NCBI GenBank assembly: GCA_018666775.1 | Contig: JABIXC010000007.1 | Location: forward strand, 316,015 to 380,014 | Length of the DNA: 64,000 nt | Source of the DNA: Rhodospirillales bacterium | GTDB lineage: Bacteria; Pseudomonadota; Alphaproteobacteria; SMXQ01 | Direction of reading: 5' to 3' | In this document: piece by piece, positions 52,330 through 64,000 of the stretch | How positions within the stretch are numbered: the first letter of the stretch is position 1 | Layout: each line of letters starts with the position of its first letter | The notes under the pieces: generated by a model | Database searches by the model: none | The model's input: the letters and a program-made list of their open reading frames with translations, nothing else | What the model was told of the DNA's origin: nothing | Position numbers and translations under genes: made by a program

Positions 52330-53589
52330 CTATTTACAATCGATTTTTTTCGCTTCCATATTGGGTTTTGGCCAAGTGAACGTGCAGGTCATGCCTACCT
52401 TGATCTTTTTACGCTTGGTTTTTTTCCCATTAAGAAATACCGACGTCCGTGACCCAGAAACTTTGGCGGTCAATTTTTTGCCTTTATGGCTGATGGTGAT
52501 GCGCCGACCCCCCCGTTTAATTTTGGTAACCGGGCCATTATGACTGACCATTGGGACCTTAACATTGGTCAATGCGGTCAGCATTTTGATGATGCCCGGG
52601 GGCTGGTTAAGCATGGCAACAACCAGTTTTGTGGTGTCTTCCCCATTTGCCGCCTCGATCAAACGCTTTGACTTTTTCGCTTCTTCGATCAAATCCGGGC
52701 TTTTTGCAGATGCCATAAAGACAGCCCGAAGCGTTTTCAAGCGGTCCGGATTCATGTTTGGCGGGCCGGCAACAATGCGCGACAATTTGCCATACAGGGT
52801 CATCATCTTGGACAGGGTCTTTTGCTGTTCGGTCTTGGCAAGGTCGATGGCGTTGGGCACCGTCTTCATCATACTTTGGAATTGCAAACTATCGCCAAAC
52901 CGCAGAATAATTTTGGTCTGTCCCGCACGAACATACGTCATGCCAGAACTAAGCCCACCTGCCAGGGTGTCAATTTCACCCCGCAACATGCCAAGGGCAG
53001 ATTCCGGTCCTTGATACCCAGCAATAATGCGATACGGGATGCCATAGGATTCGCTGATCAGGAATGAATCATTCCACGAACCCGACCCAACACCAGAAGC
53101 AGACCACTTGATTTTACGTTTGGTGTTTAAGATATCATTCCAGGTTTGGTATTTGGAATTGTGCGCCACAGAAACCACGCGGACATCAGCAGCACCCTTG
53201 CCAATCCATGATAATTTGGACAAATCAAACCGCATGCCCTTAAGGCTCATGATTTGGGCATAGATCAATCCGGTTGTGAAATTACCGATGGTCAAACCAT
53301 TGGGTTTTGATGCCGCGATCAGATTGGCACCGATCACGTGTCCAGCACCCGGCCGGTTGATGGTGACAAATTTTGATCCAGGCAGTGCCCTTGACATATG
53401 GCGCGCAAACAAGCGCGCATAGAAATCATGGCCGCCACCGGGCCCGGTGGCGATAATCCATCTAACTGTTTTGTCCTTGTAATATGCTTTCCCGTCAGCC
53501 GCATCGGCCGTTCCGGTAAATGCCCCGGTAAAAACCAGCGCGCCCGCCATTAGGGTGCCAGTGGCCATTAACTTGTTTAACTGTTTCAT
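52330..53589 (-). CDS. TctC/Bug-type periplasmic binding protein with basic C-terminal domain (2)
   Basis: 419-aa secreted receptor of the tripartite tricarboxylate transporter family. Signal peptide MKQLNKLMATGTLMAGALVF, cut near ADA-AD. The core includes YYKDKTVRWIIATGPGGGHD and FVTINRPGAGHVIGANLIAA. The final ~65 residues form a Lys/Arg-rich, beta-strand-like extension with two cysteines, ending KKIDCK, similar to that of the TctC protein at 43183. ATG 53589 follows GGGAGA and gives the signal peptide. No TctA/B genes are adjacent; a FecR-domain gene lies upstream on the same strand, 120 nt away. The ligand is an unidentified small carboxylate. Confidence 0.88.
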   Translation of the reverse strand: MKQLNKLMATGTLMAGALVFTGAFTGTADAADGKAYYKDKTVRWIIATGPGGGHDFYARLFARHMSRALPGSKFVTINRPGAGHVIGANLIAASKPNGLTIGNFTTGLIYAQIMSLKGMRFDLSKLSWIGKGAADVRVVSVAHNSKYQTWNDILNTKRKIKWSASGVGSGSWNDSFLISESYGIPYRIIAGYQGPESALGMLRGEIDTLAGGLSSGMTYVRAGQTKIILRFGDSLQFQSMMKTVPNAIDLAKTEQQKTLSKMMTLYGKLSRIVAGPPNMNPDRLKTLRAVFMASAKSPDLIEEAKKSKRLIEAANGEDTTKLVVAMLNQPPGIIKMLTALTNVKVPMVSHNGPVTKIKRGGRRITISHKGKKLTAKVSGSRTSVFLNGKKTKRKKIKVGMTCTFTWPKPNMEAKKIDCK

Positions 53590-53709
53590 GATCAGGTCTC
53601 CCTTTAATTGTCTCCCAGATACAATTACTAACTGAAGCCATGCTTTTTTTTGAATACCAAAAGTGGAACACATCCCAGTTCCACCTACAAGACATCATCC
53701 AATGAAGTC

Positions 53710-56122: not shown

Positions 56123-56371
56123 GGCCACCTCATCTGGTTCAGCATTTTTGAACCGTTCGGAAGCAAAACCCAAGCATACCCAAAGATGAGTTAAGCCCAC
56201 AGCAAAGCCTACCATATTCCATTAATGGTGTTAAGCCTGTGGGTATGACAGAAAATAGCCCAACAATTTAGACTGATAATGCCTCACATTACCCTCGCAA
56301 GACGGGGCAAGCTGATTTATCCTGACAGCCCTGCATCAGATTTAACCTTGATCAACTTTCGGGAACATTCC

Positions 56372-57247
56372 ATGCCTTATATAAAGATCCTTCTGTTGTG
56401 TTCTGTCATTGCCTTGCCATTTATCGGACCCTTTTCGACCCCGGCCAATGCTGAACCGTTCGTCTTTACCGCCATTCCCGATGAAAATACCGCGCGGCTG
56501 CGGCAACGCTTTGATCAGGTTGCTGCTTATCTTTCAAAGACATTAGGCGTTGAAACCAAATATGTTCCTGTTAAATCCTATGCCGCTGCCGTTGTCGCCT
56601 TTCGCAACAACCAGGTCCAAATGGCATGGTTCGGCGGCCTATCCGGTGTTCGCGCGCGGGCCCTTGTAAAAGGGTCCGAAGCCATCGCACAAGGGTTTGA
56701 AGACAAGGCGTTCGTCACCTATTTCATTGCCCACGCCAGCACGCGTTTAAAAATATCCAAAGCCTTTCCAAAAGCCATTGCGGGCAAAACCTTTACCTTT
56801 GGCTCCAAGGGCTCCACGTCTGGTCGTTTAATGCCGCAATATCACATCCTCAAAAATCTGCACGCAGCCCCCCATGCCATTTTTAAGAAAGTTGGCTTCA
56901 GCGGCAATCACTCTAAAACCATCGCCCTTGTCCAAACGGGTGCTTATCAGGTGGGCGCGGTTAATTTCAAGGTTTGGGAAAACGAATTGAAGGCCGGAAA
57001 AATCGACCTGTCAAAAGTTTCTATCATCTGGAAAACCCCACCCTATCCCGATTATCAATGGACCATCCGCGGCGATGTGGACAAACGCCTGAAACCCGGT
57101 TTCAAGAAAAAAGTGCGTGCAGCCCTGTTGTCCATGAAAGACCCGAAACTCCTTGCGGCTTTTCCCAGAAAAAGCTTTATCCCAGCAAAAAATTCTGACT
57201 ATCAGCCCATCTGGGATGTAGCGAAGCAAATCAAACTGATCGACTGA
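56372..57247 (+). CDS. PhnD-like periplasmic binding protein, probable selenium-oxyanion ABC receptor
   Basis: 291-aa secreted binding protein of the phosphate/phosphonate (PhnD) family. Signal peptide MPYIKILLLCSVIALPFIGP, cut near ANA-EP. Then AIPDENTARLRQRFDQVAAY, YVPVKSYAAAVVAFRNNQV, MAWFGGLSGVRARALVKGSE and TFGSKGSTSGRLMPQYHIL. A family known as putative selenate-transport binding proteins (TIGR04553, from memory) has this form and lies next to selD; the selD fusion downstream supports that reading over phosphonate. ATG 56372 follows CGGGAAC and opens the signal peptide; an earlier in-frame start at 56279 would hide it. First gene of a four-gene plus-strand unit. Confidence 0.85.
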   Translation: MPYIKILLLCSVIALPFIGPFSTPANAEPFVFTAIPDENTARLRQRFDQVAAYLSKTLGVETKYVPVKSYAAAVVAFRNNQVQMAWFGGLSGVRARALVKGSEAIAQGFEDKAFVTYFIAHASTRLKISKAFPKAIAGKTFTFGSKGSTSGRLMPQYHILKNLHAAPHAIFKKVGFSGNHSKTIALVQTGAYQVGAVNFKVWENELKAGKIDLSKVSIIWKTPPYPDYQWTIRGDVDKRLKPGFKKKVRAALLSMKDPKLLAAFPRKSFIPAKNSDYQPIWDVAKQIKLID

Positions 57248-57249
57248 AC

Positions 57250-57903
57250 GTGATTTTCAGCCTCAACAATGAAAATTTGGGATATGACGGCTGTGCCGTG
57301 CTGCGTGACATTTCCGTCACCATTTCAGCCGGTGAGCGGGTGGCACTGGTGGGGGAAAGCGGTTCTGGAAAAACCACTTTATTGTCTGTTCTGCAAACCC
57401 GCTACGATGAAAATACCGCCCTCATCCCCCAAAACCTTGGCCTTGTCCGTAGTTTAAGCGTCTTTCACAACATCTATATGGGGGCTCTGGCGCGCAACAA
57501 TACGGCCTACAATCTTTCAAATCTGGTTTGGCCCCGCAAACGCGAAGTGGCGCAAATCCGCCCCATTGCTGAAGGATTGGGCCTGGGCGATAAACTGTTT
57601 GAACGCGTTGGCACCCTTTCCGGCGGGCAACAACAGCGCGTCGCCATCTGCAGGGCACTGTTTCAAGGCGGTGAAGCGGTGCTGGGCGATGAGCCGGTAT
57701 CGGCAATCGACAATCATCAATCCCGCATTGTTCTGGACGCCCTGACAGAAAATTTTGAAACCGTTATTTTGGCCATGCATGACGTTGATTTGGCCCTTGA
57801 ATATTCGACGCGGATCGTCGGCATCAAAAATGGGGGCATCGCCCTTGATGAACCGACCGGGAACCTGACACGACCCGATCTTGATTTCCTGTATACGGAC
57901 TAG
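57250..57903 (+). CDS. PhnC-like ABC transporter ATP-binding protein (selenium importer)
   Basis: 217-aa ATPase. Walker A VGESGSGKTTLLSVL (about residues 35-49), Q-loop LIPQNLGLVRSLSVFHNI, signature LSGGQQQRVAICRAL, Walker B-equivalent EAVLGDEPVSAID, and H-loop ILAMHDVDLAL. Slightly shorter than typical PhnC. The Walker B region is unusual in having GDEP after AVL (the usual run is four hydrophobics then DEP). GTG 57250 starts 2 nt after the binding-protein stop, so coupling is likely. It should drive uptake through the fused permease at 57908. Confidence 0.9.
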   Translation: MIFSLNNENLGYDGCAVLRDISVTISAGERVALVGESGSGKTTLLSVLQTRYDENTALIPQNLGLVRSLSVFHNIYMGALARNNTAYNLSNLVWPRKREVAQIRPIAEGLGLGDKLFERVGTLSGGQQQRVAICRALFQGGEAVLGDEPVSAIDNHQSRIVLDALTENFETVILAMHDVDLALEYSTRIVGIKNGGIALDEPTGNLTRPDLDFLYTD

Positions 57904-57907
57904 GTTG

Positions 57908-59437
57908 ATGACAGCATCAAGCCTATCCAAGCCAACAGGCCCTGCCTATTCATCCTTGGTGAAAACCAGCATGGGCTTCGTTGCCGTTGCCATTGTCTGC
58001 CTGTTCTTTGCCGATGTTTCCATCACCACGCTCGACCCATGGTCAGAAATGAAGCGCATGGCATGGGGGGTGGTGACACCCGATTTCCCCGCCGTTATTG
58101 GCATGGGAACCGGGATTGTGATGATCATCGTGCAAACCATCGCCTTTGCCCTTTCGGGTGTTGCCCTTGGCGCCGTGGGCGGGTTTGCCCTTTCCCAGGT
58201 TTTTCATCTGGCCCCGGTTCGCTGGGTATGTGCGGGCGCGCGCGCCATCCATGAGCTGTTCTGGGCGTTGATTTTTTTGCAGATGCTGGGGCTCTCACCC
58301 CTGACCGGGGTGCTGGCCATCGCCATTCCCTATGCGGGCATCTGCGCCAAGGTTTATGCCGAAACCCTGGAAGAAGCAGAATTGCCGGCCCTTCAGGCCT
58401 TGCCAAAAGGCGTGGGCATTGTCTCCGCCTTTTTCTTTGCCCGCCTTCCCGATGTTTGGGTTCATCTAAAGACCTACACCAGCTACCGGTTTGAATGCGG
58501 GCTGCGGTCCGCCACGGTGTTGGGGTTTGTCGGGTTGCCGACCCTGGGCTTTCATCTGGAAACAGCGTTCAGCGAAGGTCATTATTCAATCGCTGCTGCT
58601 TTGTTGATCATTTTCTATGTTTTGATTGCCAGTTTGCGATTTTGGATGCGCCCAAAACTCGTTGGCTTTTATATCCTGGCTGCACCCTTCGCATTGGGGG
58701 GCGGCGCCGCCATCGATATAACCAACATAACCCGCTTTATAACCAACGATATTGTGCCCCTGCCCTTTCGCCAGGGGGGGCTTTTTGATGGCCAGACCTG
58801 GAGCCACATGGGGGACTGGCTTTGGACCATGCTGATGGATCAGGCGGTCCATGGCATGATTTCAACCCTGCTGCTGACCCAGATCGCCCTGATTGGCACG
58901 GGCATTTTGGCATTGGCCCTGTTTCCGCTGGTTTCCAAAAAATTCTTCGGGCCCTATGGCCGGGCCGTTGGCAATGGGTTCATGGTTATTCTGCGGTCCA
59001 CCCCGGAATTCATTCTGGCCTATATTTTCCTGCAGCTCTGGGGGCCATCCATGTTGCCAGCCATCGTTGCCCTGTCCCTTCACAATGGGGCCATCATTGG
59101 CCATCTGGTGGGCCGCTTCAGTGATGAAGTTCAAACCCGGCCAGACAGTCCGAAGGGCTTCAACCTGTATGGATATGAAATTTTACCAAGGGTTTATGGC
59201 CAATTTCTGGCATTTCTGTTCTACCGTTGGGAAGTGATCATGCGCGAAACTGCCATTATGGGGATACTGGGCATTGCCACTTTGGGATTCTTCATCGATT
59301 CTGCGCTGTCTGACATTCGCCTTGATCGGGCAATGTTTTTGATTGCGGTCACCGCAATCTTTAATATAGGCATCGATGCAGTTTCAAGGCGCATTCGGCG
59401 TAACCTGCGTTTAAGTACCCAGGCCGGCAGGGCCTAG
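57908..59437 (+). CDS. PhnE-like ABC permease, two permease domains fused
   Basis: 509-aa inner-membrane protein, about twice the length of PhnE, with two successive permease domains. Domain one (about residues 50-255) ends with the PhnE-type segment RSATVLGFVGLPTLGFHLET; its EAA-like loop is LEEAELPALQALPKGVG. Domain two (about 300-505) has RETAIMGILGIATLGFFIDS. Fusing both halves makes a heterodimer-like channel in one chain. ATG 57908 is 4 nt after the ATPase stop. The TAG stop at 59435-59437 lies inside the first of three 17-nt tandem repeats. Confidence 0.88.
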   Translation: MTASSLSKPTGPAYSSLVKTSMGFVAVAIVCLFFADVSITTLDPWSEMKRMAWGVVTPDFPAVIGMGTGIVMIIVQTIAFALSGVALGAVGGFALSQVFHLAPVRWVCAGARAIHELFWALIFLQMLGLSPLTGVLAIAIPYAGICAKVYAETLEEAELPALQALPKGVGIVSAFFFARLPDVWVHLKTYTSYRFECGLRSATVLGFVGLPTLGFHLETAFSEGHYSIAAALLIIFYVLIASLRFWMRPKLVGFYILAAPFALGGGAAIDITNITRFITNDIVPLPFRQGGLFDGQTWSHMGDWLWTMLMDQAVHGMISTLLLTQIALIGTGILALALFPLVSKKFFGPYGRAVGNGFMVILRSTPEFILAYIFLQLWGPSMLPAIVALSLHNGAIIGHLVGRFSDEVQTRPDSPKGFNLYGYEILPRVYGQFLAFLFYRWEVIMRETAIMGILGIATLGFFIDSALSDIRLDRAMFLIAVTAIFNIGIDAVSRRIRRNLRLSTQAGRA

Positions 59438-59480
59438 AGATTAGTCGGGCCTAGAAATTAGTTATGCCTAGGGATTAAAG
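59431..59480 (+). repeat. three 17-nt tandem imperfect repeats between the permease stop and selD
   Basis: The block GGCCTAGAGATTAGTC recurs with a period of exactly 17 nt: the CCTAG cores start at 59433, 59450 and 59467, followed by AGATTAG, AAATTAG and GGATTAA. Copy one contains the permease stop codon, and copy three runs into the selD ribosome site AAAGGAG. The repeats fill the 56-nt gap. Possible roles are a protein or RNA binding site regulating selD translation, or a recent slippage product. Confidence 0.8.
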
Positions 59481-59493
59481 GAGCGAACAAGAA

Positions 59494-61770
59494 ATGCAAT
59501 CTGGCCAACCTGCCATCATTAAAGACCTCGTCCTCATTGGCGGTGGCCACAGCCATGTGATTTTGCTCAAGAAATTTGCCATGAAGCCATTGCCCGGCAT
59601 TCGGTTGACGGTCATTGCCCGGGATCTGCACACACCCTATTCGGGCATGTTGCCGGGCTATGTTGCGGGACATTACGAATTTGATGACGTCCATATTGAC
59701 CTGCGCCCCTTGTGCCAATTGGCGGGGGCACGCCTGTATCATGACGAAGCGACCCTGCTGGACCTTAAAACCAAACAGGTGATCTGCAAAGATCGCCCGC
59801 CCGTCCCATACGATGTGCTGTCAATCAACATTGGTTCAACACCCAGCTTCAACAATGTGCCCGGTGCCGAACAATTCACCACGCCGGTTAAACCGATCAA
59901 CAATTTTGTCGACCGTTGGCATCAATTGTCAGAACGCGTCATGACCACACCCGGCCCTCACCGCATTGGTGTTGTGGGTGCAGGTGCGGGTGGTGTGGAA
60001 ATTCTGCTTTCCATGCAACATAGCCTTAGCCAGCGTTTGGCCGAACAAAACAAAGACCCCAATGATTTGAAATTCCATCTGATTTCCAAATCAGAGACCA
60101 TCTTGCCAAGCTTCGGCGCGGGCGTGCGCCAACCCTTTGAACGCCTCATGGCGGACCGGTCCATCCATGTCCATCAGGCTGCCAAAACTGAAAAAGTAAC
60201 GCCCAATGCCATCACGCTGGATAATGGCGACACGATAGAATTGGACGAAGTGCTCTGGGTTACTGCTGCCGGTGCGCCAAATTGGCTGCGCGAATCGGGG
60301 CTTGATGTCGATGATGCAGGCTTTATTCAGGTTAAAGACAGTTTGCAATCGACCTCTCATGGCGATGTTTTTGCCGCAGGTGACATTGCCGCTGTGGTCA
60401 ATCACCCCCGCCCAAAGGCCGGTGTCTTTGCGGTCCGCCAAGGCCCGCCGCTGACGGAAAACCTGCGCCGGGTTTTGGTCGGAAAACCAGCACGCGATTT
60501 TTCACCCCAGCGCGCCTTTCTGGTTTTAATCAGCACCGGGGATAAATGCGCCGTTGCTTCTAAATGGGGGTTATCTGCCAAAGGCCGATGGGTCTGGAAA
60601 TGGAAAGACTGGATTGATCGTCGTTTCATGAACAAATTCAACCTGTTACCAGAAATGATCGCAGAAAAAGTCCCGGCGCTCGACCCCGGCCTTGCCGATC
60701 AGCAAACCCTGAAAGACATTTCCGCCGTTGCCATGCGCTGTGGGGGTTGCGGTGCAAAAGTGGGTGCCAATGTTCTAAGCCGCGCTTTGGCCGAACTGGA
60801 ACCGCTGGAAAATGATGATGTTCTGGTTGGCCTGCATGCCCCCGATGATGCCGCCGTGGTTCAAATTCCCGAAGGCATGGTCGCCGTTCATACCGTCGAT
60901 TACTTTCGGGCCTTTATTGATGATGCCTATATCTTTGGCCAGGTTGCCGCCAACCATGCCTTAAGCGACATCTTTGCCATGGGGGCCACCCCCCAAACAG
61001 CGCTGGCCATTGCCACCGTTCCCTTTGGCATTGAATCAAAGGTCGAAACGACGCTCCGTGAAATGATGACCGGTGCCATGGATATCTTGAATGAAGCCGG
61101 GGCAACCTTGGTCGGGGGGCATACCAGCGAAGGCCCTGAATTGGCGTTGGGGTTTTCCGTCAACGGCCTTGCGGACCGCGAAAGCATTTTGCGCAAATCT
61201 GGCATGGTTCCGGGTGAAGTCTTGATTGTCACCAAGGCATTGGGAACCGGCACGCTGTTTGCCGCCGACATGCAGCAAAAAGCCAAGGGCCGATGGATTG
61301 ATGGGGCGCTTAAATCCATGGTCCAGTCGAACCAAAAAGCAGCACACTGCCTGTTTGATCATGGTGCCAGTGCCTGCACCGACATTACAGGGTTTGGATT
61401 GCTGGGCCATATGGTTGAAATGACCAAGGCATCCAATGTTGATGTAGAGGTTGACCTTGATGCCCTGCCCATTCTCGATGGTGCTCTTGATGCGGTGCGC
61501 CTTGGTATTTTAAGCTCGCTTCAGCCCGCCAATGTGCGCCTTCGCCGGGCCATCCGTAATCTTGATGATGCGCAAAAACACGAACGCTATCCTTTGTTAT
61601 TCGATCCCCAAACATCGGGTGGTTTGCTGGCCTCTATCCCTGCCAATCGCGCAGATGCCTGTATCAAAGCCCTGATCGATCTTGGCTACACCCGCTCCGT
61701 TATCATTGGTGAGGTGAAACCTGAAAGCGATGCGCTGGAACCGGTGACCCTTATTTCAAAACAGAATTAA
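59494..61770 (+). CDS. selD: FAD/NAD(P)-dependent oxidoreductase fused to selenide, water dikinase (SelD)
   Basis: 758-aa two-domain protein making selenophosphate from selenide and ATP. N-terminal ~380 residues: Ndh-like pyridine-nucleotide-disulfide reductase, with LVLIGGGHSHVILLKKFAMK, DLHTPYSGMLPGYVAG, VGAGAGGVEILLSM and VFAAGDIAAVV. This type of N-terminal domain is known specifically as a SelD fusion partner (TIGR03169, from memory). C-terminal SelD begins near residue 410: MRCGGCGAKVGANVLSRAL carries the catalytic Cys and Lys (Cys, not selenocysteine), then APDDAAVVQIPEG, HTVDYFRAFIDD, VGGHTSEGPELALGFSVNG and TDITGFGLLGH. AGGAG precedes ATG 59494. The 3' end overlaps senB by 20 nt on the opposite strand. 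The oxidoreductase half may reduce the selenium source. Confidence 0.95.
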   Translation: MQSGQPAIIKDLVLIGGGHSHVILLKKFAMKPLPGIRLTVIARDLHTPYSGMLPGYVAGHYEFDDVHIDLRPLCQLAGARLYHDEATLLDLKTKQVICKDRPPVPYDVLSINIGSTPSFNNVPGAEQFTTPVKPINNFVDRWHQLSERVMTTPGPHRIGVVGAGAGGVEILLSMQHSLSQRLAEQNKDPNDLKFHLISKSETILPSFGAGVRQPFERLMADRSIHVHQAAKTEKVTPNAITLDNGDTIELDEVLWVTAAGAPNWLRESGLDVDDAGFIQVKDSLQSTSHGDVFAAGDIAAVVNHPRPKAGVFAVRQGPPLTENLRRVLVGKPARDFSPQRAFLVLISTGDKCAVASKWGLSAKGRWVWKWKDWIDRRFMNKFNLLPEMIAEKVPALDPGLADQQTLKDISAVAMRCGGCGAKVGANVLSRALAELEPLENDDVLVGLHAPDDAAVVQIPEGMVAVHTVDYFRAFIDDAYIFGQVAANHALSDIFAMGATPQTALAIATVPFGIESKVETTLREMMTGAMDILNEAGATLVGGHTSEGPELALGFSVNGLADRESILRKSGMVPGEVLIVTKALGTGTLFAADMQQKAKGRWIDGALKSMVQSNQKAAHCLFDHGASACTDITGFGLLGHMVEMTKASNVDVEVDLDALPILDGALDAVRLGILSSLQPANVRLRRAIRNLDDAQKHERYPLLFDPQTSGGLLASIPANRADACIKALIDLGYTRSVIIGEVKPESDALEPVTLISKQN

Positions 61771-62707
61771 CAATCCGCTTTAAGGCGGCCCGTTCATGGC
61801 CGGGCTGGAACAGGGGTTTCAGTTTCCGGCCACACCGTTCCAGTGATTTAAGATACCGGGGATCAGATTCTGCGCGTTGCAAAAGCACCGCCAAGGCCGC
61901 TTCATCGCGAACCGGGTAAAGCCCCGGATAATCGCTACCTAAAAGACCAACATTGCCGTCAATATCACTGGCGATCACAGGCACATTGGCCGCAATGGCT
62001 TCGGAAACCACATTGGCCCCGCCTTCCTGATTGGAACTGATCACCATCAAATGGGTCTTTGCAAATTCGCGCCGCACCCGCCACCCGCCAACCTCTCCCA
62101 GCCAATGATAACGGGGGTTTATATCCATTTCTGACCGTGCTTGTTTGGCAAATTCAGGGGTGTGGGCCTTTCCCAAATGAATAACCCGAATCCTGGATGC
62201 CTCAGGCAATAATCTTGCGGCCCGTGCCGTCCGGAAGGGGTCTTTTTCATCGCGCAAATGGCCGATAACACAAATATCAAAATGGCGTTTGGCAGGCGTT
62301 CTGGCACCAGACAATGGCAAGGCCGATTGGCGAACCACATGAAGTTTGTGGCGCAGCCCTTTAGGTAATGCGTTGCCAATAAGATCATGAAGACAGATCA
62401 ACGCATCAGCCAGTTTCATGGACCGAAGCGTTGGTTCGGGGTGGGTTTTCAGGAACGTATTCACATCCGTTCCCCCAAGCCCCACCACCAATGGGCCGTG
62501 GGCATAGCGTTCGCGGTAGCGCAAAATCGCATCGGCACTGCGCCAGGCATGGATGGCAATCATGACATCCGCTACTTCACCCCTGTAATCAACATCGATG
62601 CGCACCTGATGGCCCAGTTCACGCAACATCCGCGCCCAACGAACGGCCGTGGTTCTGTTGCCATTTTTGGACTGTTTTTCAGCCGGCGTGACTATGCTAA
62701 TCTTCAT
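61751..62707 (-). CDS. senB: selenosugar synthase-like glycosyltransferase (SenB type)
   Basis: 318-aa GT-B protein of the family known as TIGR04348 (from memory), whose members in selenoneine clusters (SenB) attach selenium from selenophosphate to a UDP-sugar to form a selenosugar. Seen: MKISIVTPAEKQSKNGNRTT at the start, followed by AVRWARMLRELGHQVRID, AIHAWRSADAILRYRE, LGGTDVNTFLKTHPEPTLRS, VIGHLRDEKDPFRTARAARL and EGGANVVSEAIAANVPVIAS. The GNR-T-RW-LGH pattern is the hallmark. ATG 62707 follows AGGGA and removes a 12-residue upstream extension. It is convergent with selD and divergent from senA, with only 29 bp between the two start codons. Confidence 0.9.
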   Translation of the reverse strand: MKISIVTPAEKQSKNGNRTTAVRWARMLRELGHQVRIDVDYRGEVADVMIAIHAWRSADAILRYRERYAHGPLVVGLGGTDVNTFLKTHPEPTLRSMKLADALICLHDLIGNALPKGLRHKLHVVRQSALPLSGARTPAKRHFDICVIGHLRDEKDPFRTARAARLLPEASRIRVIHLGKAHTPEFAKQARSEMDINPRYHWLGEVGGWRVRREFAKTHLMVISSNQEGGANVVSEAIAANVPVIASDIDGNVGLLGSDYPGLYPVRDEAALAVLLQRAESDPRYLKSLERCGRKLKPLFQPGHERAALKRIVNSVLK

Positions 62708-62736
62708 GAACGTCCCTAACCAATGGTGGAATTTCC

Positions 62737-64000
62737 GTGACAACGCCTGTTAGTACCGCACATTTGATCGCGAACATGCAAGACGCCCGGAACCGGACCC
62801 TTGAACTGGTCGCTGACCTTGATGACCAACAATTGATGGGGCCTAAATTACCCACGGTTAATCCTTTGCGTTGGGAAATTGGCCATGTTGCCTTTTTCTA
62901 TGAATATTTCATCCTCAACCAGCTTTACGGGCAGGCGTCCATCTTAGGCGATCGTGCAACGAAGCTCTATGATTCCATTGCCATTGCCCATGAATTGCGA
63001 TGGGATTTGCCACTGCTGAGTCGGGAAGAAACGCTCAATTATTTGCAAACGGTCTTTGATCTGCTGGCAGACCGTCTGGATCAGGGCATGGCCAGCGAAC
63101 AAGACAGCTTCATCTATCAATTCGCCATCTTCCACGAAGACATGCACACAGAAGCTTTTCTCTGGGCACGCCAAACCCTCGGGCTTGCCACGCCTAATCT
63201 CGCCATTGCCGCTGATGTTTCAGACGAACGCGCAGTGGGGCCGCATTCTGGTTTTGCTAAAATTCCCGGAGGCACCTTCCCGCTGGGTGCATCTAAAGAC
63301 GCGCCCTTCTTGTTTGATAATGAAAAATGGGCGCATTCGGTAAAAATAGAGCCCTTTGAAATTGCCAAGGCGCCGGTGACAAATCAGGAATTTCAGGCCT
63401 TCGTCGATGATGGCGGATATGACCGGGAATCTTTTTGGGATAAAGATGGCTGGAAATGGCGCACAGATACCAAAGCCAAACACCCCGTCTATTGGGTGCC
63501 CGATGGGCATCATAAATGGCAGGTCCGGCGTTTCGATCAAACCTTTGCCCTGCCCCCCCATGAACCCGTGATTCACGTCAACTGGTTTGAGGCCAATGCC
63601 TATTGCCGTTGGGCCGGGGTACGGCTGCCCCGAGAATCCGAATGGGAAGCAGCCGCCCTTGGCGAAGCCGGGCCTGATGGCACCTTGGCCGCATCCAAAC
63701 GACGCTATCCCTGGGGGGCGCTCATCCCCGATCCTGCACTTGCCAATCTCGATGGACGGGCATTGGGGCCAATCGACGTGTCGGCACTGGGGGCTGGCGA
63801 CAGTGCGTTCGGGTGCCGCCAGATGCTCGGCAATGTTTGGGAATGGACGGATGATACGTTCAATGGCTTCCCGGATTTTGAAGCGGATGCCTACAAAGAA
63901 TATTCGGCCATGTTATTTGGCGACACCAAGGTGCTGCGCGGGGGTGCCTGGACCACCCGGGGCCGCATGATCCACGGCACGTATCGAAATTACTTTGAGC
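62737..64000 (+). CDS. senA: selenoneine synthase-like EgtB homologue (SenA type), 3' end outside window
   Basis: At least 421 residues of an EgtB/ergothioneine-synthase homologue. The N-terminal DinB-like domain carries the three-His iron site: EIGHVAFFYEYF (about residue 48) and FHEDMHTEAF (about 128-137). The FGE-sulfatase domain follows: KIPGGTFPLGASKDAP, VTNQEFQAFVDDGGYD, VNWFEANAYCRWAGVRLPRE, GNVWEWTDDTF and VLRGGAWTT. GTG 62737 is the only in-frame start after the stop at 62707-62709 with a ribosome site (GGTGGA, 6 nt). With senB and selD adjacent, it is assigned to the SenA branch, which joins hercynine to a selenosugar. Hercynine synthesis (EgtD) is not in the window. Confidence 0.9.
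   Translation, partial: MTTPVSTAHLIANMQDARNRTLELVADLDDQQLMGPKLPTVNPLRWEIGHVAFFYEYFILNQLYGQASILGDRATKLYDSIAIAHELRWDLPLLSREETLNYLQTVFDLLADRLDQGMASEQDSFIYQFAIFHEDMHTEAFLWARQTLGLATPNLAIAADVSDERAVGPHSGFAKIPGGTFPLGASKDAPFLFDNEKWAHSVKIEPFEIAKAPVTNQEFQAFVDDGGYDRESFWDKDGWKWRTDTKAKHPVYWVPDGHHKWQVRRFDQTFALPPHEPVIHVNWFEANAYCRWAGVRLPRESEWEAAALGEAGPDGTLAASKRRYPWGALIPDPALANLDGRALGPIDVSALGAGDSAFGCRQMLGNVWEWTDDTFNGFPDFEADAYKEYSAMLFGDTKVLRGGAWTTRGRMIHGTYRNYFE

Follow-up and report, generated by a model that had tools for sequence, protein, structure and literature searches.

We analysed a 64,000-nucleotide stretch of the genome of a Rhodospirillales bacterium (hereafter the window; contig C7, positions 316015-380014) and found at its end a set of genes that probably forms a selenium-utilisation island, in which selenium would be imported, activated by SelD and then split between selenoneine and selenocysteine. 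From position 56372 to the window end lie, in order, a substrate-binding protein (SBP) of the TIGR04553 type, a PhnC-like ATPase, a PhnE-like permease, an oxidoreductase–SelD fusion, SenB on the minus strand and SenA on the plus strand. All were scored against NCBIfam profiles with curated cut-offs, in a genome of 2.41 Mb and 19 contigs that is 98.2% complete. A first-pass annotation of the window had placed these parts side by side and read them as a sen cluster expanded by an importer and an oxidoreductase–SelD fusion. The parts are all there, the profile searches that it proposed (TIGR04348, TIGR03169 and TIGR04553) give scores over their cut-offs, and the gene set bears out the expanded cluster. 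It had also called the EgtB homologue SenA-like, which agrees with our searches and trees, where the protein fails the ergothioneine and ovothiol models and groups apart from EgtB.

The gene set recurs among SenB loci

The order SBP-PhnC-PhnE-oxidoreductase-SelD-SenB-SenA is found in 16 of 84 SenB loci, the window's included. Since this ordered seven-part set recurs, the gene neighbourhood is not due to chance. The 84 loci are the best 80 among the matches listed in a SenB alignment search, together with the window locus and loci from three further genomes. Ten of 13 further regions are uncounted among the 84, eight because their contigs equal ones of L025-L104 in length and two (L109 and L115, without such a counterpart) simply left out. 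Genes were counted by single-sequence searches at fixed score limits, on contigs many of which are short. On this count, the SBP is present in 33 of the 84 loci, PhnC in 33, PhnE in 37, the oxidoreductase domain in 54, SelD in 59 and a SenA-like enzyme in 73 (two of them, in L082 and L101, OvsA-type), while EgtD, SelA and SelB are present in 9, 3 and 2. Where both flanks are at least 7.5 kb long, the SBP is found in 22 of 39 loci and SelD in 30 of 39. If order is ignored, 20 of the 84 loci hold the SBP, oxidoreductase, SelD, SenB and a SenA-like gene together, and in all but one of the 73 loci that hold both SenB and a SenA-like gene (72 loci), the two stand next to each other in divergent orientation. 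Other gene orders are seen in L082 (OvsA-type), L084, L087, L098 and L100, with the window's own set of parts in L084, L087 and L098 and an OvsA-type enzyme among them in L082, indicating that the linkage is not merely an inherited order. The importer and the SenB-SenA pair also occur without a nearby fusion (L056, L064, L076 and L089), and the oxidoreductase domain occurs without SelD (L053 and L050). SenB itself is present in 10 of 289 genomes of a class sample and in 6 of the 11 genomes of the window's family.

Seven loci (L071, L073, L077, L079, L080, L081 and L083) contain SenB and the SelD fusion, all except L077 with the importer, and have no SenA in the right flank. By eye, the open reading frames at SenA's usual place in L071, L080 and L081 are amidohydrolase-like. 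A new product for SenB loci without a nearby SenA was considered and set aside, since SenA scores over its cut-off elsewhere in 8 of the 11 such genomes searched. Among the remaining three, one has a cut SenA match, and two, the genomes to which L077 and L081 belong, lack any match above the cut-off.

SenB and SenA

SenB, a predicted selenosugar synthase, occupies 61751-62707 on the minus strand, with a likely start at ATG 62707 in an open reading frame that opens at 62743. Its end overlaps the end of SelD by 20 bases. It scores 399 bits against TIGR04348 (cut-off 300), and its N29, T32, K167 and E240 align with N20, T23, K158 and E231 of the characterised SenB. Mutagenesis of that enzyme found its N, T, K and E residues to be important, according to extracts from PMC10891094.

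SenA, a predicted selenoneine synthase, runs from 62737 on the plus strand to the window end at 64000, which cuts the gene; 50 further bases take it to C7:380064. Against the SenA model NF041186 it scores 473 bits when whole and 441 bits as cut by the window end (cut-off 420). Its H50, H133 and H137 sit at the places that we take to be those of the EgtB iron ligands. We placed the enzyme with two trees, a quick one of 113 rows and a careful, EgtB-rooted one of 54 of those 113. In the careful tree, a selenium-linked clade of 43 rows (support 100/98) excludes EgtB and contains a Variovorax-type SenA clade (99/95), an OvsA clade (100/100) and a large SenB-linked clade that includes the window's enzyme. 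Bracketed in this way by phylogeny, the product of the window's enzyme is likely to be selenoneine.

The row nearest to the OvsA clade is L121 (95/89), a SenA-like enzyme from the same genome as the OvsA-type L128. L121 and L128 flank one unfused SelD with Cys on contig G305:C4 of a gammaproteobacterial symbiont, whose genome is also that of L100. An egtD gene lies about 5 kb off; in this symbiont a single SelD may thus serve the synthesis of ovoselenol as well as selenoneine.

An NDH-2-like flavoprotein is fused to SelD

The fusion gene lies at 59494-61770 on the plus strand and encodes 758 residues, of which about 1-385 form an NDH-2-like flavoprotein domain and about 414-758 a SelD domain. 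It scores 507 bits against TIGR03169 (cut-off 310) and 309 bits against the SelD model TIGR00476 (cut-off 125), and 480 bits against TIGR04369, "fusion_not_SelD", which is below that model's cut-off of 700. Its AlphaFold model has a mean predicted local distance difference test (pLDDT) score of 87.6 and a predicted template modelling score of 0.88, with the loop 416-425 under 50 in pLDDT. In VIA-align comparisons the N-terminal domain is closest to a YjlD model (Z 43.6) and to the NDH-2 of Caldalkalibacillus (42.5; Caldalkalibacillus and Staphylococcus NDH-2 together 41 to 43), followed by other NDH-2s (35 to 37) and sulfide:quinone reductases (31 to 36). The SelD domain matches Aquifex and E. 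coli SelD with Z of about 35 (2zod, 35.2).

No cysteine of the flavoprotein domain is invariant among 51 rows, the commonest being present in 44, from which we infer that this domain does not act by a disulfide. In the SelD domain, C416, C419 and Lys422 are invariant and belong to a CGGCGAK motif at residues 416-422 (window 60739-60759). The motif is CGGCGAK (once CGGCGSK) for 56 of 58 fused SelDs and G[CU]GCK for 14 of 15 that are unfused, UGA standing at that place in four of the latter; the rest are unreadable. The second cysteine precedes the catalytic one in fused SelDs and follows it in unfused ones. We speculate that the shift of the thiol pair into this loop in the fusions could couple the two domains.

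Four SenB-SenA loci (L059, L090, L096 and L099) have an unfused SelD with UGA at the catalytic position, in the motif GGUGCK. A selenoprotein SelD would supply selenoneine synthesis in these loci.

The importer and its predicted substrate

The SBP gene lies at 56372-57247 on the plus strand, within an open reading frame of 56279-57247, and its likely start is the internal ATG 56372, which gives a signal-like N-terminus by eye. It is followed on the same strand by the PhnC-like ATP-binding cassette (ABC) ATPase gene at 57250-57903 and by the permease gene at 57908-59437, whose open reading frame opens at 57881 and which encodes a double PhnE-like permease as a single polypeptide with two TIGR01097 stretches. 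The SBP scores 364 bits against TIGR04553 (cut-off 250) and 143 bits against the PhnD phosphonate model TIGR03431, below the cut-off of 261. The ATPase (best profile TIGR02315, 154 bits, cut-off 266) and the permease (TIGR01097, 190 bits, cut-off 217) are likewise below the phosphonate-specific cut-offs.

Genes for three selenium outputs are found with the importer, though some importer loci lack them. Of the genomes in the class sample, 7 of the 10 with SenB and 4 of the 279 others have a TIGR04553 match above the cut-off (Fisher p 1.2e-9, uncorrected for kinship). Among the four class loci without SenB, L146 has the importer, selA and selB in a row, L143 has selA-selB 6.4 kb off, L145 lacks both, and the contig of L144 ends within the locus. 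A phylum sample has TIGR04553 in 34 of 398 genomes. Its 33 loci outside the host's own genome include seven with SenB and SelD, six with SelD (L229, L232-L235 and L239) and one with SelA. In L208, L210 and L212 the importer stands beside SenB and the SelD fusion, and the genomes of these loci hold OvsA-type genes (L157-L159).

In selenite, a pyramidal XO3 anion, a lone pair takes the place of the hydrogen of phosphite, and selenate is tetrahedral. By sequence, the nearest solved relatives of the SBP are PhnD1 of Synechococcus (212 bits) and of Prochlorococcus (197 bits), with 39-41% identity. The phosphite contacts and cap residues of Prochlorococcus PhnD1 are listed in the consulted part of PMC5700983, which ascribes the preference of PhnD1 for phosphite over phosphate to a tyrosine cap that leaves no space for a larger fourth substituent. 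We compared these contacts in 38 SBPs, 33 from SenB loci and five from other class loci. Y101, F145, S179, T180, S181, H211, N229 and Y259 are present in all 38, D68 in 37 (with one gap) and D258 in 37. Across 72 TIGR04553 rows, Y101, F145, the S-T-S stretch and H211 are kept in all, D68 in 70, N229 in 68, Y259 in 70 and D258 in 65, with N at the last position in seven rows, among them L208, L210 and L212. An SBP tree divides the 72 rows in two. The first group has 53 rows, including the window's, and PhnD1 joins it (96/85); its members mostly carry K99 and K/R177, and none has Asp 212. The second group, of 19 rows, has Asp 212 throughout and includes SelD neighbours. Because the pocket keeps the phosphite contacts of PhnD1, we predict selenite as the substrate, with phosphite and selenate possible too.

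Hercynine and selenocysteine genes in the host genome

A profile search of the host genome finds a single EgtD, on contig C10 (TIGR03438, 380 bits, cut-off 291), and a single SelD over cut-off. The SenA model, which also detects EgtB, has no second match at E 0.001 across the host genome, which is 98.2% complete. Given the single EgtD and the lack of a second match, SenA is the only visible user of EgtD hercynine. In 9 of the 84 loci egtD directly follows SenA with overlapping open frames, including L026, L028, L031 and L038 from the window's own 12-row SenA clade. Of the 49 SenB genomes covered by a search, 40 have EgtD and 29 have SelA above the respective cut-offs, the window's genome being included in both counts; the 49 are the genomes of named SenB loci, mostly those with longer contigs, plus the window's genome, with L053 left out. 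Since SenB and SenA both exceed their cut-offs, SenA groups with SenB-linked enzymes, egtD is present in the genome and no second EgtB-like match is found, selenoneine is the likely product. A hercynine source, whose absence would have counted against the first-pass annotation, is thus present in the genome, but the annotation's complete route "in one locus" does not hold, because egtD lies on another contig. Nor does its picture of a route to selenoneine alone, because selA, selB, tRNA-Sec and two selenoprotein candidates with in-frame UGA all lie within 6.4 kb of SenA, beyond the window, in a genome with one SelD over cut-off.

Positions beyond the window are given in locus L005 (C7:371015-391014), in which a position equals the window position minus 55000. 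Three parts of bacterial selenocysteine decoding are present in the host: tRNA-Sec at L005:11930-12024 (75.4 bits, gathering score 47), and selB (444 bits, cut-off 242) and selA (588 bits, cut-off 268) downstream in L005. About 1.6 kb past the window, an iodothyronine-deiodinase-like gene with an in-frame UGA lies on the minus strand at L005:10567-11250 (C7:381581-382264). It scores 72.6 bits against Pfam T4_deiodinase, and 141 bits against the NCBIfam model deiodinase_rel, below the cut-off of 250. In its GSYTUPPF motif, the UGA aligns with the Cys of GSCTCPPF in a solved type III deiodinase, presumably the place of the catalytic selenocysteine. The second candidate, an AhpC/TSA-redoxin-like gene on the plus strand at L005:11397-11873 (C7:382411-382887), has its UGA in a UxxC arrangement (FYRGHWUPYCRR); it is divergent from the deiodinase-like gene and adjoins tRNA-Sec. 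In L029, a relative of the window, selB and selA are found on the opposite side of the importer. From this gene content, one SelD probably supplies both the selenoneine and the selenocysteine routes.

Directly after SenA, and overlapping its stop by 4 bases, is a malonyl-CoA-synthase-like ligase gene (L005:9047-10570, plus strand; 788 bits, cut-off 558). The ligase scores 1140 bits on itself and at most 245 elsewhere among the 84 SenB loci; it is therefore outside the recurrent unit and probably has no selenium role. The island is flanked by genes for TctC-like binding proteins, at window 52330-53673 on the minus strand and at L005:17401-18699 on the plus strand, the second below the gathering score. 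By eye, both proteins have a similar lysine-rich C-terminal extension that ends in Cys-Lys.

Alternative explanations

Several of the observations weighed here count against the reading given above. For SenA, the best solved chains are OvsA 8ux5 (323 bits) and 8u41 (315), ahead of EgtB 4x8b (279) and SenA 8k5i (212), which raises the possibility that the enzyme is an OvsA-type selenoxide synthase and that the locus makes ovoselenol from histidine. The trees also place OvsA nearer to the window's clade than Variovorax-type SenA, with support of 92 in the quick tree and a moderate 86/87 in the careful one, and 16 alignment columns side with OvsA and 9 with SenA, although at nine of these 16 the SenA group has a gap (this comparison omitted L161 and L166, which have long branches, and five rows of uncertain place). 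Apart from this rival, the main reading has against it that 9 of the 49 SenB genomes have no EgtD over cut-off, one of them having a cut match. We nevertheless regard an OvsA-type enzyme as very unlikely. At three columns the natural OvsA rows have M, Q and A in five of five rows with letters (L082 has M and is cut for the rest), residues that we derived from the OvsA rows and not from the OvsA paper; structure 8ux5 departs at its residues from 8u41 and the natural rows, which is why we take it to be an engineered variant. The window's enzyme has Y389, N418 and Y419 at these columns, as SenA-like enzymes do, and most SenB-linked rows have Y and N. The closed OvsA clade does not contain the window's enzyme, four rows of the enzyme's own clade have egtD immediately after SenA, and the host genome has egtD. 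That an ergothioneine (EgtB) or ovothiol (OvoA) enzyme lies beside selenium genes by chance seems to us the least credible explanation of all. The superfamily is the same, and the protein scores 334 bits (whole) against the EgtB model TIGR03440 and 165 bits against the OvoA model TIGR04344, and passes an EgtB-related signature model (80.7 bits, cut-off 71). Yet both enzyme models remain below their cut-offs (360 and 400) while the SenA model is passed, 12 alignment columns are common to all three selenium-linked groups and differ in EgtB, the selenium-linked clade leaves EgtB outside, and SenB is adjacent and divergent in nearly every locus with a SenA-like gene. Hardly more credible is a locus that is mainly a selenocysteine island, with the sen genes as a recent or idle addition. 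The nearby selA, selB, tRNA-Sec and selenoprotein candidates would fit it, but it is the importer, fusion, SenB and SenA that recur together as a core, no more than 3 of the 84 loci have selA close to SenB, and the key SenB residues and SenA-type residues are kept. For the two selenoprotein candidates themselves, SECIS-like folding is weak (z -2.19 for the deiodinase-like gene, with 3 of 200 shuffles as good, and z -1.14 for the redoxin-like gene, with 28 of 200).

The importer could instead carry phosphite or another reduced phosphorus compound and owe its place in the locus to something unrelated to selenium. Its pocket equals that of the phosphite-binding PhnD1, which makes phosphite a possible ligand by sequence. 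The AlphaFold model of the SBP (mean pLDDT 86) finds PhnD1 (7s6g, 5lq8 and 5lq5) with the best Foldseek E-values, and PhnD1 and PtxB are the nearest folds on this measure; template modelling scores to PhnD1 are only 0.61-0.71, and those to an HtxB variant are higher (0.68/0.80). Three of the ten SenB genomes of the class sample have no importer, and 19 of the 33 phylum loci, on stretches of at most 20 kb, are without any of the selenium genes that we searched for, so that some TIGR04553 members may carry something else. On the other side, the importer is present in 33 of 84 SenB loci and in several gene orders, it also neighbours selA-selB and selD in loci without SenB, some genomes that hold OvsA-type genes have it beside SenB and the SelD fusion, and it is concentrated in the SenB genomes of the class sample (7 of 10 versus 4 of 279). 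K99, K/R177 and the lost Asp 212 further separate the window's group from PhnD1. We therefore consider phosphite transport unlikely here. Within selenium transport, the case for selenite over selenate is weakened because the PhnD1 structure 7s6g was solved with phosphate; 5lq8 was solved with methylphosphonate, and a tetrahedral ligand such as selenate can thus fit.

A model for selenium use

In the selenium-utilisation island that we propose, the ABC importer would take up a selenium oxyanion, most likely selenite. The oxidoreductase–SelD fusion would receive reduced selenium, its NDH-2-like domain supplying or guarding electrons, and its SelD domain would make selenophosphate, at which point the flow would split. 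On one branch, SenB would make a selenosugar that SenA joins to hercynine, provided by EgtD from the other contig, to give selenoneine. On the other, SelA, SelB and tRNA-Sec would provide the selenocysteine of two or more selenoprotein candidates close by.

More tentatively, and at odds somewhat below even, we suggest that TIGR04553 proteins with PhnC/PhnE-like partners constitute a dedicated high-affinity selenite importer that evolved beside PhnD1 by reusing its pocket for pyramidal XO3 anions. Such an importer, whose selenium would pass through an NDH-2-like/SelD fusion carrying a CGGC thiol pair, would feed selenocysteine, selenoneine and ovoselenol synthesis as three separate outputs. No uptake system specific to selenium would have been identified in prokaryotes before it. 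Passages of a 2022 review (PMC9312934) and of a 2026 review (PMC13188914) state that a specific or high-affinity system for selenium transport has yet to be identified, and extracts from a 2024 study (PMC11097638) report that five archaeal candidates for selenium transport were tested without success and that none had been identified in any organism. The locus type offers a named candidate with selenite as its predicted substrate, one whose binding could be tested easily. Judging from such loci, selenoneine may be made by many uncultured alpha- and gammaproteobacteria, and a single SelD may serve both proteins and a small-molecule antioxidant.

Comparison with known systems

The sen pathway, the oxidoreductase–SelD fusion, the "putative selenate" SBP model and the selenocysteine genes are already known. 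Possibly new are the recurrent importer-fusion-SenB-SenA unit, its overlap with selenocysteine and ovoselenol genes, the branch point at a shared SelD and the selenite prediction. The selenoneine cluster senABC of Variovorax paradoxus was reportedly described by Kayrouz et al. in 2022. That cluster (PMC9814287; extracts from PMC10891094) resembles the present locus in having SenB, SenA and a SelD-type enzyme, with the same predicted chemistry and product. The present locus differs in that its SelD carries an NDH-2-like flavoprotein domain, SenB and SenA are divergently oriented, and the set is extended by an ABC importer, with egtD elsewhere in the genome and selenocysteine genes downstream. 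Its SenA is also on a branch of its own, which retains a stretch of about 55 residues absent from the solved SenA.

Fusion of the NADH oxidoreductase COG1252 to SelD was reported in 2008, with the suggestion that the oxidoreductase provides SelD's reduced selenium compound (excerpts of PMC2432076). The domain architecture of the TIGR03169 fusions is identical to that found here, where the fusion is tied to SenB and SenA; compared with unfused SelDs, it has CGGCGAK in place of G[CU]GCK. The SBP is a member of the "putative selenate" family TIGR04553 by its curated cut-off, whereas its pocket would favour selenite over selenate. With the phosphite SBPs PhnD1 and PtxB it shares the same first-shell pocket, with 39-41% identity to PhnD1, but it differs in having K99 and K177, in having no Asp 212 and in its genome neighbourhood. 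OvsA, the ovoselenol synthase, is likewise a selenium-linked EgtB-like enzyme that is also found with SenB and SelD (L082 and L101), and is set apart from the window's SenA by M, Q and A residues that the latter does not have and by its separate, closed clade.

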